The position numbers were made by a program, and so were the translations under genes. This document shows positions 5,113-12,153 of a stretch of DNA of 64,000 nt, in pieces. The notes beneath the pieces were generated by a model. The model was not told where the DNA came from. It ran no database searches and saw only the letters and a program-made list of their open reading frames with translations. Where the stretch lies: the NCBI GenBank assembly GCA_025055455.1, contig JANWXD010000019.1:1-64000 (forward strand), in the 5' to 3' direction. This DNA comes from Bryobacteraceae bacterium. GTDB lineage: Bacteria > Acidobacteriota > Terriglobia > Bryobacterales > Bryobacteraceae. How positions within the stretch are numbered: the stretch's first letter is position 1; the number at the start of each line of letters is the position of its first letter.

Positions 5113-5503
5113 GGAGGCTGCTGGACGGGCAGTCGCTCGGGAGCCGTAGTGACGGCATCCCGGGAGGAAAGTCCGGTCTCCACAGGGCAGCGTGCCGGCT
5201 AACGGCCGGGGGGATCCGCTCAAAGCGGATTTCACGGAAAGTGCCACAGAAAACATACCGCCGCGGTCCGGATTCCGGGCCGAGGTAAGGGTGAAAAGGT
5301 GCGGTAAGAGCGCACCGCAGCCGGAGCAATCCGGGCTGGCAGGGCAAACCCCACGCGGAGCAAGACCGAATAGGGGAGGATGGAGTGGCCCGCTCCGCTG
5401 GACTCCCGGGTAGGTCGCTCGAGCCGGCCAGCAATGGCCGGCCCAGAGGAATGACTGCCGCCCGCCAGGGCACAGAAACCGGCTTACAGTCCAGCAGGCC
5501 TCC
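5113..5503 (+). ncRNA. rnpB: RNase P RNA, bacterial class A
   Basis: The catalytic RNA of RNase P matures tRNA 5' ends. The hallmark GAGGAAAGTCCGG block is at about 5163-5175, with CACAGGGCAG just after. The conserved 3' section (CAGAAACCGGCTTACAG) is at about 5473-5489. The P1 helix closes the molecule: GGAGGC-TGCTGGAC at 5113-5127 pairs with GTCCAGCAGGCCTCC at 5489-5503 with a single bulged base, which sets both ends. Length is about 391 nt, normal for class A. It sits between the divergent OmpA-type gene and the cytochrome operon. Confidence 0.95.
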
Positions 5504-5713: not shown

Positions 5714-7756
5714 ATGCGCACTCGTTCCCTGACGCCTCGGATCCTCCGCGCAGCGGTGATCCTGGCATTGCTGGTCGGCGCCCTGTTGCTGGTGAGCGCC
5801 GAAGGACCCCAATTCACAGTCCATGACAAAGCCTATTACGCCGATGCGAACTTGGTCGCTTTCGTGCGCCCGGGGCTGAGGGTAGAAATTCTGTCCGCCT
5901 CGATTGACCCCGACGGCACGATTCGCACGCGATTCAAGATCACCGATCCGCGAGGTCTGCCGCTCGATCGGGAGGGCGTGTTCACGCCCGGACCGGTGAC
6001 GCTTCGATTTTTGGCGGCCTACATTCCTCGGGGCGGCTCGCAGTATGTCTCCTACATCACGCGCGTGCAGACGAGCCCGATCACCGGAGCCTCGGCGGTC
6101 CAAGCCTTCGACGAAACCACTGGCACCTTCACGAAAGTCGCCGACGGCGAGTACATTTACACGTTTCGCACCCGGGCGCCGTCCAATTTCGACCGTTCGG
6201 CCACGCACACTGTGGGGATCACGGCGAACCGGAACCTGACCGAGTTCGACCTGGGTGTTTACCTTGACGACGCGGTGTACCATTTCGTCCCAGACGGTTC
6301 GCGCCGTCCCGAGCCGCGCGATCAGATCAAGACCGCCACGTGTAACAAGTGTCATCAGGACATGAGTTTCCATGGTCAGACCGGGCGCAAGAGCATGGAG
6401 GTGTGCATCCTCTGCCACACCCCGCAAACCACCGATCCGGATACCGGCAACACGGTGGACATGCCGGTGATGACCCACAAGATCCACATGGGGGCCGAGC
6501 TGCCCAGCGTCCAAGCCGGCAAGCCGTACGTGCTGATCGGCTTTGCGCAAACGCGGTTCGACTATTCGCACGTGCGGTTCCCGGCCGACACGCGAAACTG
6601 CACGTTCTGCCACGAGCAAGGCAAGGGTGCCGCGCACGAGAAGGCTTACCTCAAACCGAGCCGGGCGGCTTGCGGCTCCTGCCACGACGACGTCAATTTC
6701 GCCACCGGGGAGAACCACGCCAACCTGCCGCAGTTTAGTGACAGTTTGTGCGCGACCTGTCACATCCCAGAGGGCGAACTGGAGTTCGATGTCTCCATCA
6801 AGGGTGGACACACGATTCCCCGCTTTTCGCGGGATTTGCCGGGCACAGTGTTCGAGCTCATTCGGGTGACCGACGCGGCGCCCGGCCGGCAACCGGTGGT
6901 CACGTTCCGAGTGCGCGACCGCTCGGGCCGTCCGATTCTGCCCTCTCAAATGACCCGGCTGTTTCTGTACTTGGCCGGTCCGACCAGCGATTACGCCTCC
7001 TACGTGGGCGAGGATGTGCGGGGCGCCACGGCGGCTGCGGACGGCACCGCGGTCTACACCTTCCGCTACCGGCTGCCGGCCGACGCCAAAGGCACCTGGG
7101 CAGTAGGCATCGAAGGCTATCGGAACATCACCCTGCTGCCCGGTACGGTCAAACAGCAGACGGTGCGGGACGCGGGCGTCAACAAGGTGCTGTACTTTTC
7201 GGTCGACGGCAGCCGCGTGGAGCCGCGCCGAACCGTGGTCTCTCTGGAGAAATGCAACAACTGCCATTTCAGCCTTTCCTTCCACGGAGACAACCGCAAC
7301 ACCATCGAACAGTGCGTGCTGTGCCACATCCCCAGCGAGACGGACCGGGCGCGGCGGCCTGCGGCGCAGATGCCGCCGGAATCGGTCAACTTTGTCACCA
7401 TGATCCACCGTATCCACGCCGGCGCCTTGCAGGAGCGGGACTACACCATTTACGGGTTCGGCAACGTGCCCCATAACTACAACCACGTGCGCTATCCGGG
7501 CGACCTGCGTTATTGCGATGGGTGCCACGTCAACAACTCGCAGCAGGTTCCGCTCGACACACGCCTGCTCCAGGTCGTGGATCCCCGCGGCTGGTTGAAT
7601 CCGGTGGGTCCGACGACGTCGGCCTGCACGGGGTGCCACGCGTCGCTGTACGCTGCGTCGCACGCTCTGGCGAATACCACACAGCTCGGCGAAAGCTGTG
7701 CGGCGTGCCACAAGCCTGGCGCGCAGTTTTCGGTGGATCGCTCGCACGCCCGGTAG
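5714..7756 (+). CDS. OmcA/MtrC-family decaheme c-type cytochrome
   Basis: The 680-residue product has ten CXXCH haem-binding motifs in two sets of five. The first set is CNKCH 210, CILCH 231, CTFCH 296, CGSCH 320 and CATCH 346. The second is CNNCH 514, CVLCH 534, CDGCH 601, CTGCH 638 and CAACH 662. Each set follows a beta-rich domain (about 32-195 and 365-505), which is the MtrC/MtrF four-domain layout. The halves are internal duplicates (SFHG, HKIH/HRIH and HVRF/HVRY recur). Family members sit outside the outer membrane and pass electrons to minerals, electrodes or shuttles. The ATG at 5714 is preferred because GGAGG lies 8 bases upstream and a signal peptide follows. Unlike Shewanella MtrC there is no lipobox cysteine and no non-haem CX8C pair. 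It is first in a mtrC-A-B order operon. Confidence 0.92.
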   Translation: MRTRSLTPRILRAAVILALLVGALLLVSAEGPQFTVHDKAYYADANLVAFVRPGLRVEILSASIDPDGTIRTRFKITDPRGLPLDREGVFTPGPVTLRFLAAYIPRGGSQYVSYITRVQTSPITGASAVQAFDETTGTFTKVADGEYIYTFRTRAPSNFDRSATHTVGITANRNLTEFDLGVYLDDAVYHFVPDGSRRPEPRDQIKTATCNKCHQDMSFHGQTGRKSMEVCILCHTPQTTDPDTGNTVDMPVMTHKIHMGAELPSVQAGKPYVLIGFAQTRFDYSHVRFPADTRNCTFCHEQGKGAAHEKAYLKPSRAACGSCHDDVNFATGENHANLPQFSDSLCATCHIPEGELEFDVSIKGGHTIPRFSRDLPGTVFELIRVTDAAPGRQPVVTFRVRDRSGRPILPSQMTRLFLYLAGPTSDYASYVGEDVRGATAAADGTAVYTFRYRLPADAKGTWAVGIEGYRNITLLPGTVKQQTVRDAGVNKVLYFSVDGSRVEPRRTVVSLEKCNNCHFSLSFHGDNRNTIEQCVLCHIPSETDRARRPAAQMPPESVNFVTMIHRIHAGALQERDYTIYGFGNVPHNYNHVRYPGDLRYCDGCHVNNSQQVPLDTRLLQVVDPRGWLNPVGPTTSACTGCHASLYAASHALANTTQLGESCAACHKPGAQFSVDRSHAR

Positions 7757-7765
7757 GAGCGGACC

Positions 7766-8716
7766 ATGCCGGTTCCTCCTGCCAGGCGCCGCCGGGGCCC
7801 CCGGAAACGCGGGGGCCCCGGCCCCTTTTCTCCCGGCTGGCTCCTCCTGCTGGTCTGGCCGCTTGTGGCGCAGGCGCCGCCGAAACCCGCACCACAGACC
7901 GTGGGTTCAGAGATCTGCCAGGCGTGTCACGAGGATATTTACAAGGCGTTCCAGCAAACTTCCCACGCTTTGGTGGAAAAAGATCGTCGGCATGGCTGGC
8001 AAGGAAAAGCCTGCGAGTCCTGCCACGGGCCGGGCAGCGCGCATGCCGAATCGGGATCGGCCGCCGACATCCGGAATTTCGCCAAGCTTGCGCCGGCCGA
8101 GGCCGACCGCATTTGCCTTACGTGCCACCTGAATCAGCCCACGCAGGTGGGCCGCATCCATGGCGGACACGCGCGGGGGCAGGTGGCGTGCGTCAGTTGC
8201 CACTCGATTCACAAGCCCCGGGCCGAGACGGTCACTTCGGCCAAGGCCGCCCTCATCAACAAGAACTGCGCCGGATGTCACCTGTCGAGCTGGGCGGAAT
8301 TTCAGAAACCTCACCGCCACCGCCTGCCGGAGGGCGCTATGTCTTGTGTGGACTGCCACAACCCTCACGGAAGTCTCCTGCCGCGTTCCCTCCAGACGGT
8401 GTCAGCCAACGAACCGGGATGCCTGAAATGCCACGGGGACAAACGCGGACCGTTTCCGTTCGAACATGCCGCGGTGCGCGTCGAGGGCTGCACAGCTTGC
8501 CATCAGCCCCACGGGTCCGCCAACCCGCGCATGCTCACACGCCATGAGGTGCGTTTCCTGTGTCTGGAGTGCCACAGCAACCTGCCGGTGGTGGCGGCAG
8601 GTCCGGGAGGCGTGCCGCCGGCGTTCCACGACCTGCGGAGCCCGCGCTTCCGCAACTGCACGACGTGCCACATCAAGATTCATGGATCTTACGTTGACCG
8701 GGCTTTCCTGCGATGA
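7766..8716 (+). CDS. DmsE/MtrA-family decaheme c-type cytochrome
   Basis: The 316-residue protein has ten evenly spread CXXCH motifs: CQACH (51), CESCH, CLTCH, CVSCH, CAGCH, CVDCH, CLKCH, CTACH, CLECH and CTTCH (near 300). It ends in IHGSYVDRAFLR, matching the conserved DmsE/MtrA C-terminus. MtrA-type cytochromes form the haem wire that threads the MtrB barrel from periplasm to surface. The signal peptide has an unusually long basic, Gly/Pro-rich n-region before the hydrophobic core (WLLLLVWPLVAQA). The ATG at 7766 follows AGGAG by 6 bases and lies 9 bases after the upstream stop. Its stop overlaps the next start as ATGA, so translation is coupled. Confidence 0.93.
   Translation: MPVPPARRRRGPRKRGGPGPFSPGWLLLLVWPLVAQAPPKPAPQTVGSEICQACHEDIYKAFQQTSHALVEKDRRHGWQGKACESCHGPGSAHAESGSAADIRNFAKLAPAEADRICLTCHLNQPTQVGRIHGGHARGQVACVSCHSIHKPRAETVTSAKAALINKNCAGCHLSSWAEFQKPHRHRLPEGAMSCVDCHNPHGSLLPRSLQTVSANEPGCLKCHGDKRGPFPFEHAAVRVEGCTACHQPHGSANPRMLTRHEVRFLCLECHSNLPVVAAGPGGVPPAFHDLRSPRFRNCTTCHIKIHGSYVDRAFLR
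7791..7829 (+). promoter_or_regulatory. perfect 12-bp GC hairpin followed by a T-run, inside the mtrA-like signal-peptide coding region
   Basis: GCCGGGGCCCCC at 7791-7802 pairs without mismatch with GGGGGCCCCGGC at 7811-7822 around an 8-base loop, then CCCTTTTC follows. This has the form of an intrinsic terminator or attenuator but lies 25 bases inside the mtrA-like gene. It could reduce readthrough or translation into the downstream genes and so set cytochrome/porin ratios. The structure is seen directly; its activity is inferred. It may alternatively be a by-product of Gly/Pro/Arg codons. Confidence 0.45.
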
Positions 8717-10677
8717 GACGCTACTGGATCGCACTCGTGACCTTGTCTCTTTTAGCGCAGCAAGAGGCTCCGCCGGCTGGACAGCCCTCGCCGGCACCGG
8801 GCGTCGAGCAGTGGTTCACCGGCAGCTTTGAAGTGGGCGAGCGTTTCTTAGGTCCGTTGCGGGGCAACACGGACGCCTACCGCAGCGTGGTGAACCTCGG
8901 GGAAGGTCCCAAGCTGTTCGAAGCGGACCTCACGATCCGGAACCAATCGCGGAAGGCGTTCGACCGCCTGACGGTGCGCGGACATTCCTGGGGCGGCGAA
9001 CCCTACAACACCGCCCGGGTCGAATTGGAACGCGAGGGGAGCTACCGGTTCGGCGTGGAGTACCGCAACTTAGCGTATTTCAACGCCCTTCCCTCCTTCG
9101 CGAATCCCTTCCTCGAGCAGGGGATCCTGTTCAACCAACGCGCCTTCGACATCCAGCGCCGCACCCTGGACGCCCTGCTGGAGTTGCGGCCGGGGAGCCG
9201 GATCGTACCCTACCTCGCCTTCCTTCGGGACTGGGGCGCCGGCTCCGGAGTGACCGACTTCGTGGCGGCCGGCAATGAGTATGCCGTGCGCAACGACCTG
9301 AGCGACCGGACCACGCATCTCCGCGGCGGCGTGCGCTTTGAACTCCGGCGCTTCCACCTGACGCTCGAACAGGGGGGCTCGAAATTCAAGGATCACCAGC
9401 GCGCCTTCCACGCCGGGACGCACTTCGGGAACCGGACGGCGCCCTTGGCCGGGCAGCGGCTGTTCCTGTCATCCCTGGAGCAATCCTGGCGGGCCGAGGG
9501 GGACAGCCTGTACACCAAAGGCCTGCTCAGCACCAATCTCGCCTCTTGGGTGGACCTGTACGGGCAGTTTCTTTACAGCATTCCCTCGAGCGACGTCTCC
9601 TACGACCAAGCCAACCGAGGGCTGTTTCGGGAGCCGTTTGACATTCTGTTCTTCACGGCTCAGCAGCGGATCCTGACGGCGGCCACCAACCAACCGCACA
9701 CCTCCGGGAGCTTCGGCGCCGAGGTCCGTCCGCACCGCCGACTGAGGATCCGGGAGTCGTGGATGACAGACCGGTTTCACATCGCGGGCGCGGTGCGGAG
9801 CGAGCGCAACATTCTCAGAGCCGACTCTGCCGAGATCGCCGGCGCGGTCCCCGACCCGGTACCAGAGCGGTTGATTTTGAACTACCACCGGCAAGAGGTG
9901 AGCCTTCTCTTCGACCCGGTCTCATGGCTGACCTTGCGAGGCGGTCACCGCTACGTTTGGGGCGACGCCGCGTTCCGCAGGCCGAGGCTCACCGTCTCGG
10001 CCGGAGCCCAGTCCGGAGAGCTCAAGATGCACGTGGGGCTCGCTGGCTTGGTGGTGCGGCCTTCGACACGGCTGAACATTAGCTTCGACTTCGAGGGCTC
10101 ATCGGCGGAACGCAATTATTTTCGGACCTCGCTTCAGGATTACCAACGCGTACGTATCCGAGGGCGCTGGCAGGCCTTCGGCTCGCTGGCGTTTGCCGCC
10201 AACGTTGCGCTGCTCCGCAATGAAAACCCGGCGCCGGACATTCGCTTCGATTTCCTCAGCCGGGAGAACTCGTTGTCCGCGTTCTGGACGCCCCAAGGCG
10301 GCAAGTGGCTGGCCCTCACAGGGGACTACACGCGCTCCACGCTTCGGTCGAATCTGTTGATTCGCAACCCCACCGATCTCGGACGAGAGCAGTCGGCATA
10401 CCGCGAGAACGCTCATATCGCCACGGCCGTGCTGGATCTGAACTTCCCGCAAGTGCGCCAGGCGGCCCCCAAGCTCAGCGCGGGGGGTTCGCTTTTCGTC
10501 TCCTCCGGCAACCGGGCATCGGAGTATTACCGGCCGCTCGTGCGATTCTCGTTCCCACTGCACCGGAAAGCGCACTGGTTCTTCGAGTGGAGTTGGTACA
10601 GTCTGTGGGAGCGCTTCTACATCTTTGAGGGCTTCCGGACGCACCATTACTTGACCGGATTGCGGTTCGCATTATAG
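8713..10677 (+). CDS. MtrB/PioB-family decaheme-associated outer-membrane porin
   Basis: This is a 654-residue beta-barrel protein with an N-terminal signal peptide (residues 1 to about 16), alternating hydrophobic strands throughout, many aromatic girdle residues, and a C-terminal strand ending in RFAL. MtrB-family porins enclose the MtrA-type cytochrome and insulate it across the outer membrane. The assignment rests on length, barrel character and position directly after the mtrA-like gene with an ATGA overlap. Primary sequence in this family is poorly conserved. It appears to lack cysteines, including the N-terminal CXXC described for Shewanella MtrB. Confidence 0.82.
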   Translation: MRRYWIALVTLSLLAQQEAPPAGQPSPAPGVEQWFTGSFEVGERFLGPLRGNTDAYRSVVNLGEGPKLFEADLTIRNQSRKAFDRLTVRGHSWGGEPYNTARVELEREGSYRFGVEYRNLAYFNALPSFANPFLEQGILFNQRAFDIQRRTLDALLELRPGSRIVPYLAFLRDWGAGSGVTDFVAAGNEYAVRNDLSDRTTHLRGGVRFELRRFHLTLEQGGSKFKDHQRAFHAGTHFGNRTAPLAGQRLFLSSLEQSWRAEGDSLYTKGLLSTNLASWVDLYGQFLYSIPSSDVSYDQANRGLFREPFDILFFTAQQRILTAATNQPHTSGSFGAEVRPHRRLRIRESWMTDRFHIAGAVRSERNILRADSAEIAGAVPDPVPERLILNYHRQEVSLLFDPVSWLTLRGGHRYVWGDAAFRRPRLTVSAGAQSGELKMHVGLAGLVVRPSTRLNISFDFEGSSAERNYFRTSLQDYQRVRIRGRWQAFGSLAFAANVALLRNENPAPDIRFDFLSRENSLSAFWTPQGGKWLALTGDYTRSTLRSNLLIRNPTDLGREQSAYRENAHIATAVLDLNFPQVRQAAPKLSAGGSLFVSSGNRASEYYRPLVRFSFPLHRKAHWFFEWSWYSLWERFYIFEGFRTHHYLTGLRFAL

Positions 10678-10688
10678 TTGCGTGCGTT

Positions 10689-11786
10689 ATGAGGACTGAT
10701 TGGTTCGTTGTGCTCCTACTGGCCGCCCGAGCCTCGGGCACCATTCCGATTCCTGGCGACGCTCGCCAGGGCGCCGAAGTCTTCAAGGCCCAAGGCTGCA
10801 TCCAGTGCCACAGCGTGGCTGGACAAGGAGGCAAGCTGGGACCCGACCTGGCCCGGCGTGTCGGGCGGGGCTACACGCCCTCGCTCATGGCGAGCTTGAT
10901 GTGGAATCATGCCCCCGAGATGTGGTCGGCCATGGAGAAAGCCGGCATCGCCAAGCCGCAGCTCACGACCGAGCAGGCCGCGGATTTGTTCGCGTACTTT
11001 TACTCTGCGCGGTACTTCGAGCAGCCGGGAGATGCAGGGCGCGGCAAACGACTCTTCGAGTCGCGCCGCTGCGCCGGCTGTCACGGTGTGACCACAGCGT
11101 TGCCGGGCGGCGCCAGACCGGTTTTGGAGTGGGCGTCGCTTGCGGATCCGATCGTCCTGGCCGCGGAGATGTGGAATCACGCCGCGCAGATGAAGGAGGC
11201 CTTCGCCAAGCGCAAAATTCCGTGGGTGCGGCTGACGAGCCAGGAGCTGGCGGACCTACTAGTCTACCTCCAGAACTTGCCCGAGACGCGGGGCGTGCCA
11301 CGCGGGTTTGCTCCGGCTTCGGCCGAAACGGGGGCGATGCTCTTCCGGGCCAAGGGCTGCGCCGGTTGCCATACCGGGAATAACTCCCTGGAAAATCGTT
11401 TCCCCAACCGCACCATGACGGATTTCGCGGTGGCTATGTGGAACCATGCACCCGACATGGGGCCTGAGGCGCCCACGCTTCGACCCGAGGAGATGCGGCG
11501 CATCGTCGGGTACTTGTGGTCGTTGCAGGTCTTCGATCAGCGAGGCGACCCTAGACGTGGCAAGCTGGTCTATGCCGCCAAGCAGTGCGCTTCGTGTCAC
11601 GACTATCCGGCATCCGGCGCGCCGAGAATTCTGGGCAACCAGCAGCTCAATTCGATGTCGATGGTGGCAGCATTGTGGAAGCACGGGCCCGCTATGCTGC
11701 GGCAACGGCAGGCTCTGGGTCTCGCCTGGCCGCGCTTCCGGGGCCCGGAGATGGCCGACCTTCTGGCCTACCTCACGCAGCCGTAA
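10689..11786 (+). CDS. exported tetraheme cytochrome c made of four tandem class I-like domains
   Basis: The 365-residue product has a signal peptide and four CXXCH motifs at about 37, 128, 224 and 300, each starting a domain of 75-95 residues. Every domain carries a downstream MWNHAPEM-type motif (near 72, 162, 251 and 330; the last is LWKHGPAM), which probably supplies the distal Met or His ligand. This regular fourfold repeat differs from multihaem families such as CymA or STC. It lies 11 bases after the porin gene on the same strand, so it probably works with the conduit as a periplasmic electron carrier or link. No Shine-Dalgarno site is obvious. Function is inferred from context. Confidence 0.85.
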   Translation: MRTDWFVVLLLAARASGTIPIPGDARQGAEVFKAQGCIQCHSVAGQGGKLGPDLARRVGRGYTPSLMASLMWNHAPEMWSAMEKAGIAKPQLTTEQAADLFAYFYSARYFEQPGDAGRGKRLFESRRCAGCHGVTTALPGGARPVLEWASLADPIVLAAEMWNHAAQMKEAFAKRKIPWVRLTSQELADLLVYLQNLPETRGVPRGFAPASAETGAMLFRAKGCAGCHTGNNSLENRFPNRTMTDFAVAMWNHAPDMGPEAPTLRPEEMRRIVGYLWSLQVFDQRGDPRRGKLVYAAKQCASCHDYPASGAPRILGNQQLNSMSMVAALWKHGPAMLRQRQALGLAWPRFRGPEMADLLAYLTQP

Positions 11787-12153
11787 TCGGTCCGTCGGGA
11801 ATCGAGCGGCCCACTAGCCGGTGGGGACGAATTTCGGCGAACGCAGTGAACGAAGAGAACCAACTCGCCCAACAAAGGCTTCTCCGGCCGCCTTCGTTCC
11901 TGCCGCCTGGACTTGCTCGACGCCTACTACGGCGCAGCGACGCGTGGCCGGGCAACGAGAGGGACTTCGGAGCGCGATTCTGCGGCGGACACGCCCCACG
12001 CCTCCGGAAGCGTCGCGGCTTGAAGCCCCGCTTTCTGCAACCTGTTCGGAACACAGAGACCGACCCAGCGGTCGGCGCGGCATCCGAGCTCGACCCGAGC
12101 TATAATCGCTTTTGGCTCACAGTGGAAAGACCAATCCTCGGAGAGCGTACACC
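11787..12153. other. intergenic region without a convincing gene
   Basis: Open frames here give low-complexity Arg/Pro-rich products and look like chance. The segment includes a near-perfect inverted repeat around ACGCCTCCGGAAGCGT (about 11999-12014). A TATAAT at 12101-12106 probably drives the downstream DUF6580 gene, but its -35 match is poor. Confidence 0.5.

Follow-up and report, generated by a model that had tools for sequence, protein, structure and literature searches.

The four genes described here raise two questions: whether they encode an outer-membrane electron conduit of the MtrCAB type, and which enzyme of the inner membrane would supply it with electrons. They lie near the start of a 64,000-nucleotide stretch of DNA (the window, G000:C56:1-64000) from a 3.95-Mb Bryobacteraceae genome that is divided into 145 contigs and is 98.75% complete. 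The reading that we consider probable is that the window holds the Bryobacterales form of the MtrCAB conduit, described as Group 5 by Baker et al. (2022, PMC8805035), and that this conduit is fed from menaquinol by ImcH and CbcL-like proteins.

The mtr genes of the window

When the open reading frames of the window were examined, we found four tightly packed genes on the plus strand at 5714-11786, in the order mtrC-mtrA-mtrB-four-haem cytochrome (Table 1), with 24 CXXCH motifs across the run. The mtrC and mtrA genes are separated by 9 bp, mtrA and mtrB overlap by 4 bp, and 11 bp lie between mtrB and the cytochrome gene. The initial annotation had given these positions, haem counts (10 + 10 + barrel + 4 CXXCH) and spacings exactly. 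It had also likened the gene order to that of Shewanella mtrCAB, and the order C-A-B, with the four-haem gene following, recurs in many genera of Bryobacteraceae. Baker et al. (2022, PMC8805035) use the clustering of mtrC, mtrA and mtrB as their criterion for MtrCAB, and in the window the three genes are clustered in this sense, being adjacent at 5714-10677.

Table 1. Features of the mtr region of the window
Feature	Position	Strand	Matches and remarks
mtrC-like gene; OmcA/MtrC-family decahaem cytochrome, 680 aa, 10 CXXCH	5714-7756	+	TIGR03507, PF22113
mtrA-like gene; DmsE/MtrA-family decahaem cytochrome, 316 aa, 10 CXXCH	7766-8716	+	TIGR03508, 6r2q_A
mtrB-like gene; outer-membrane beta-barrel, 654 aa, no CXXCH	8713-10677	+	AF2 model compared with 6r2q_B
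Cytochrome gene (c-cyt group 5); four class-I cytochrome c domains, 365 aa, 4 CXXCH, exported	10689-11786	+	PF00034 (four times)
Bacterial class A RNase P RNA	5117-5502	+	284.7 bits; directly upstream of mtrC

Beyond the RNase P RNA, the upstream flank carries a gene for an OmpA/PKD protein on the opposite strand, and the run is followed by genes for a DUF6580 protein, a diphthamide-synthase-like ATPase and a PAP2 protein. These neighbours do not look like components of the conduit. The minus-strand open reading frames that overlap the RNase P RNA are spurious. A scan of the mtr region for promoters and terminators gave nothing above chance.

Profile searches showed that the window MtrC scores 505 bits with the OmcA/MtrC model TIGR03507 (cut-off 209) and also matches PF22113 (MtrC/MtrF domains II/IV), and that MtrA scores 256 bits with the DmsE/MtrA model TIGR03508 (cut-off 192). 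The initial annotation had proposed these two TIGR models as a check on the cytochromes, and both passed it. In a phmmer search, MtrA aligned over its full length with the MtrA chain of the solved Mtr complex (6r2q_A, E 5e-36). Exactly 10 His residues outside the CXXCH motifs are invariant in an alignment of 101 MtrA homologues, and 10 distal His are kept in at least 99% of 77 MtrC homologues; this is the number required for ten bis-His haems in each protein.

MtrC has a Sec signal peptide (hydrophobic stretch 10-28), and the test for a lipoprotein anchor was negative, with no Cys before residue 210. A motif check likewise found no lipobox-like motif in 84 of 88 MtrC relatives. Since MtrC is without a lipobox, its attachment to the cell surface would depend on MtrB/MtrA instead of a lipid. 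A search of the genome did not reveal a second OmcA/MtrC protein.

Among the parts of the conduit, the barrel is most in doubt by sequence. It scored 17.7 bits (E 0.0014) with PF11854 (MtrB_PioB), below the cut-off of 23, a value to be read in light of the uncertain sensitivity of this profile beyond Proteobacteria. As neither the PDB nor NCBIfam yielded a sequence match to the barrel, structure comparison was used. An AF2 model built from an alignment of 61 sequences was all-beta, with a mean pLDDT of 85, and both Foldseek and VIA-align returned solved MtrB (6r2q_B) as its top structural match. The Foldseek E value was 2.3e-14, and VIA-align gave a Z score of 25.5 over 545 residues at 3.6 Å, the next match being an unrelated barrel with a Z score of 17.1. 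The initial annotation had made its reading depend on a match of the barrel to MtrB/PioB models; the match was obtained by structure and failed with the Pfam profile. The modelled barrel has the MtrB fold.

The fourth protein had been taken for a tetrahaem cytochrome. It is exported and carries four CXXCH motifs, as was stated, but a tetrahaem fold was not borne out: the protein contains four stretches of PF00034 and of PF13442 and thus consists of four tandem class-I monohaem domains. A multihaem protein of the NapC/STC or CymA type is ruled out by the four PF00034 domains. A WNHxxxM-type motif is conserved in all four domains across 55 homologues, with WKHxxxM as its form in domain 4, and as this motif holds an invariant His and Met, the haems are likely to be His/Met-ligated. 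The protein is predicted to act as a periplasmic shuttle. A second copy was not found when the window genome was searched.

Relatives of the conduit

Orthologues of the barrel (37-52% identity) occur in most Bryobacteraceae genomes and in far fewer genomes outside the family. We inspected 80 loci in named genomes, nearly all of which are Bryobacterales/Solibacteraceae or unclassified Acidobacteria MAGs; the loci nearest to the window cluster are Bryobacterales/Solibacteraceae MAGs. The gene for MtrA was present in 77 of them, mtrC in 68 and the four-domain cytochrome, beside mtrB, in 52. Contig ends interrupt several of the loci, which affects these counts, and some of the 28 loci in which the cytochrome gene is absent are truncated. 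The contigs of L071 (= L032) and L099 (= L040) do carry mtrA. Two contigs with Bryobacterales-type mtr genes bear the labels Sumerlaeaceae (L120) and Arcobacter (L150) and are probably misbinned MAG contigs.

Some loci depart from the arrangement seen in the window. A tandem second mtrC lies upstream of mtrCAB in L094 and L109 (and in L042 and L048), and in L123, L126, L132 and L144 mtrC lies downstream of the other two genes (mtrA-mtrB-mtrC) and the locus shows no four-domain cytochrome. Bryobacterales commonly carry a further, divergent MtrA-MtrB pair that has no MtrC and whose barrel is about 25% identical to the window barrel. The window genome has such a pair on another contig (L163:4749-7660, G000:C68), with a decahaem MtrA that is 45% identical to that of the window and a barrel that is 24% identical (E 2e-26).

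ImcH as a candidate inner-membrane partner

The initial annotation had pointed out that a CymA-type quinol oxidase was missing and had guessed at a different inner-membrane partner, and both points were supported. There was no CymA-type tetrahaem cytochrome (single-TM NapC/NirT) in the whole genome, and the sole PF03264 match was a protein of the ImcH type, P0005 (487 aa), the presence of whose family tracks this MtrB across Bryobacteraceae. The P0005 gene is on contig C134 and not on the window contig. The protein has three N-terminal TM helices (31-49, 59-77 and 110-128), an atypical CX3CH motif at 142 directly after them, and five CX2CH motifs. The signature of ImcH is three TM helices, an atypical CX3CH and 5-9 CX2CH (Zhong and Shi 2018, PMC6295460), and by these features the predicted protein belongs to the ImcH family; the CX3CH motif is kept in 47 of 47 relatives. 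The gene for P0006, a CbcL-like protein, overlaps imcH by 4 bp. P0006 is a nonahaem protein (9 CXXCH) with a b561-type membrane part (PF01292, 54 bits). A hydropathy scan indicated five TM helices after the signal, the CbcL/MtrH/MtoC type consisting of a multihaem N-terminus and a six-TM b-type cytochrome.

Across 160 genomes of the family, ImcH was present in 112 of 119 genomes with an orthologue of this MtrB, as against 10 of 41 without one (Fisher 7e-18, with genomes counted as independent and relatedness uncorrected). Within several genera (e.g. g25, g65 and g80) the two proteins are jointly present or jointly absent. Most of the exceptions, i.e. seven MtrB-bearing genomes without ImcH and ten ImcH-bearing genomes without this MtrB, are draft MAGs. 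The co-occurrence may stem from a lifestyle that these organisms have in common and need not indicate contact between the two proteins. Physical linkage of the two genes is the more direct evidence: imcH lies at most 10 kb from the barrel gene in 35 of the 160 genomes, where chance would place well under one, given a single such gene per genome of roughly 6 Mb, and within 8 kb in 22 of the 80 loci. In some loci imcH belongs to the mtr gene run itself: 4 bp separate it from the following mtrC in L186, it comes 1 bp behind mtrB in L187, with the gene for a small trihaem protein next in line, and it is placed between mtrC and mtrA in L185, giving the order mtrC-imcH-mtrA-mtrB. The L185 ImcH (9317-11950) has 17 CX2CH motifs, including 12 extra haem motifs that form four trihaem repeats. 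Genes resembling cbcL and imcH are both found beside mtrCAB and the four-domain cytochrome in L106, L109, L122, L125 and L127.

In L050 (10811-14305), an ImcH with such an extension of 12 haems in four trihaem repeats likewise lies between mtrC and mtrA and is in frame with mtrA, so that the reading frame encodes 1164 aa with 27 CX2CH motifs. The internal MtrA part keeps a signal-peptide-like stretch, and there is no in-frame ATG, GTG or TTG in the 30 preceding codons; the fusion may be genuine or may reflect a lost stop or a sequence error, and it carries no weight in the argument made here. Split or alternative CbcL-like pairs, composed of an 11-haem protein and a separate haem-free b-type part, follow imcH beside mtrCAB in L092 and L121.

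In the imcH tree, the mtr-adjacent copies without cbcL are on one side of a branch with 94/87 support, and the copy of the window genome is on the other side, together with mostly unlinked and cbcL-linked copies. Considering the linkage in the family and this position in the tree, the case for ImcH as the partner is strong for the family and moderate for the window genome. On balance, we favour the view that MtrCAB of Bryobacteraceae is driven by ImcH: imcH would be its standing quinol oxidase gene, at times within the mtr operon, and the ImcH of some genera has a built-in 12-haem extension that could span the periplasm as far as MtrA.

In the proposed route, menaquinol would be oxidised at the inner membrane by ImcH and/or the CbcL-like nonahaem cytochrome b, and the electrons would cross the periplasm to MtrA via the four-domain cytochrome or similar carriers. 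MtrA, assembled inside the MtrB barrel, would pass them on to MtrC on the outside and presumably from there to an extracellular substrate. A Geobacter-type inner-membrane step would thus be joined to a Shewanella-type outer-membrane step.

The electrons could instead run inward, entering at MtrC from Fe(II) or from a partner cell and being delivered by the four-domain cytochrome to respiratory enzymes of high potential (Alternative Complex III or an aa3 oxidase). Class-I domains with a conserved Met, as present in the shuttle, are usual in high-potential cytochromes, and Fe(II) oxidisers have the monohaem MtoD. The genome also contains an NrfD/COX cluster that includes a monohaem cytochrome, and it encodes two haem-copper oxidase subunits I; given this cluster and the second haem-copper oxidase, the organism can probably respire oxygen facultatively, and inward flow is conceivable. 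Nevertheless, we regard it as unlikely, as mtrCAB is linked to and co-occurs with the gene for ImcH, a protein connected so far with quinol oxidation alone (PMC6295460), and the shuttle gene is not found beside mtrB in the 28 loci mentioned above, some of them truncated. Mtr conduits are reversible, and direction is not a matter that sequence can settle.

It is similarly doubtful that MtrA is fed by an enzyme other than ImcH/CbcL, such as the HmcC-like complex of the NrfD type on C101, which includes a ferredoxin subunit. The window genome does encode two NrfD proteins, and its imcH is unlinked to mtrCAB; however, no NrfD gene was seen beside mtrCAB in the inspected related loci, where imcH is recurrent. 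The name of the model matched by MtrA, TIGR03508 (DmsE family), could suggest a DmsEF-like module for respiration of DMSO or another extracellular oxyanion. This is very improbable, since an OmcA/MtrC protein stands in the place of a molybdoenzyme. Extracellular DMSO respiration was rejected, as there was no molybdoenzyme among the checked neighbours (RNase P RNA, OmpA/PKD, DUF6580, diphthamide-synthase-like ATPase and PAP2).

Comparison with known systems

The cluster type itself is already known; new here is the proposal that ImcH is the inner-membrane partner of Group 5 MtrCAB. No such partner had been assigned to this group, and the ImcH link gives a complete electron route that can be tested in a common soil and peat family. 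It would also mean that natural systems combine inner- and outer-membrane modules from both textbook cases, and finding ImcH in acidobacterial MAGs could then point to extracellular respiration.

The description of Group 5 is based on five Acidobacteriia, in which mtrB is directly followed by the gene for a tetrahaem cytochrome predicted to be periplasmic; mtrC duplicates were reported as absent, and the group was the only one without a nearby quinone oxidoreductase, where only the locus was considered (PMC8805035). The window cluster fits this type by taxon, gene order and fourth gene, sharing with it the Bryobacterales affiliation, the C-A-B order, a four-haem gene after mtrB, the lack of an adjacent quinol oxidase and a single mtrC. 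The present analysis goes beyond the published description (PMC8805035) in dividing the fourth protein into class-I domains, in describing MtrC as non-lipidated and in proposing an inner-membrane partner, and it differs in that some relatives have duplicate mtrC genes (L094 and L109).

With Shewanella MtrCAB (6r2q), the window shares the decahaem A and C proteins, a barrel of the MtrB fold and the order mtrC-mtrA-mtrB. However, the barrels are just 10-12% identical in the structural alignment, the window MtrC is without a lipobox, CymA is missing, and a class-I shuttle is predicted instead of CctA/FccA. Geobacter ImcH/CbcL (PMC6295460) are resembled by P0005 in its three TM helices, CX3CH and CX2CH motifs and by P0006 in its nine CXXCH and b561-type part, whereas P0005 has five CX2CH motifs and the Geobacter protein six (stated range 5-9). 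The survey of Zhong and Shi (2018, PMC6295460) reported no mtrAB/mtoAB adjacent to imcH, and we did not find a physical linkage of imcH with mtrCAB in the literature available as open-licence full text; in Bryobacteraceae, by contrast, imcH tracks mtrCAB and often adjoins it. According to an excerpt of the report on Desulfuromonas acetexigens (PMC12133095), which notes no imcH-mtr linkage, this member of another phylum differs from the window organism in also expressing a CymA homologue. The same excerpt describes homologues of ImcH, CbcL and MtrCAB as expressed together on electrodes, and so the proposed mixture of modules has a parallel there.
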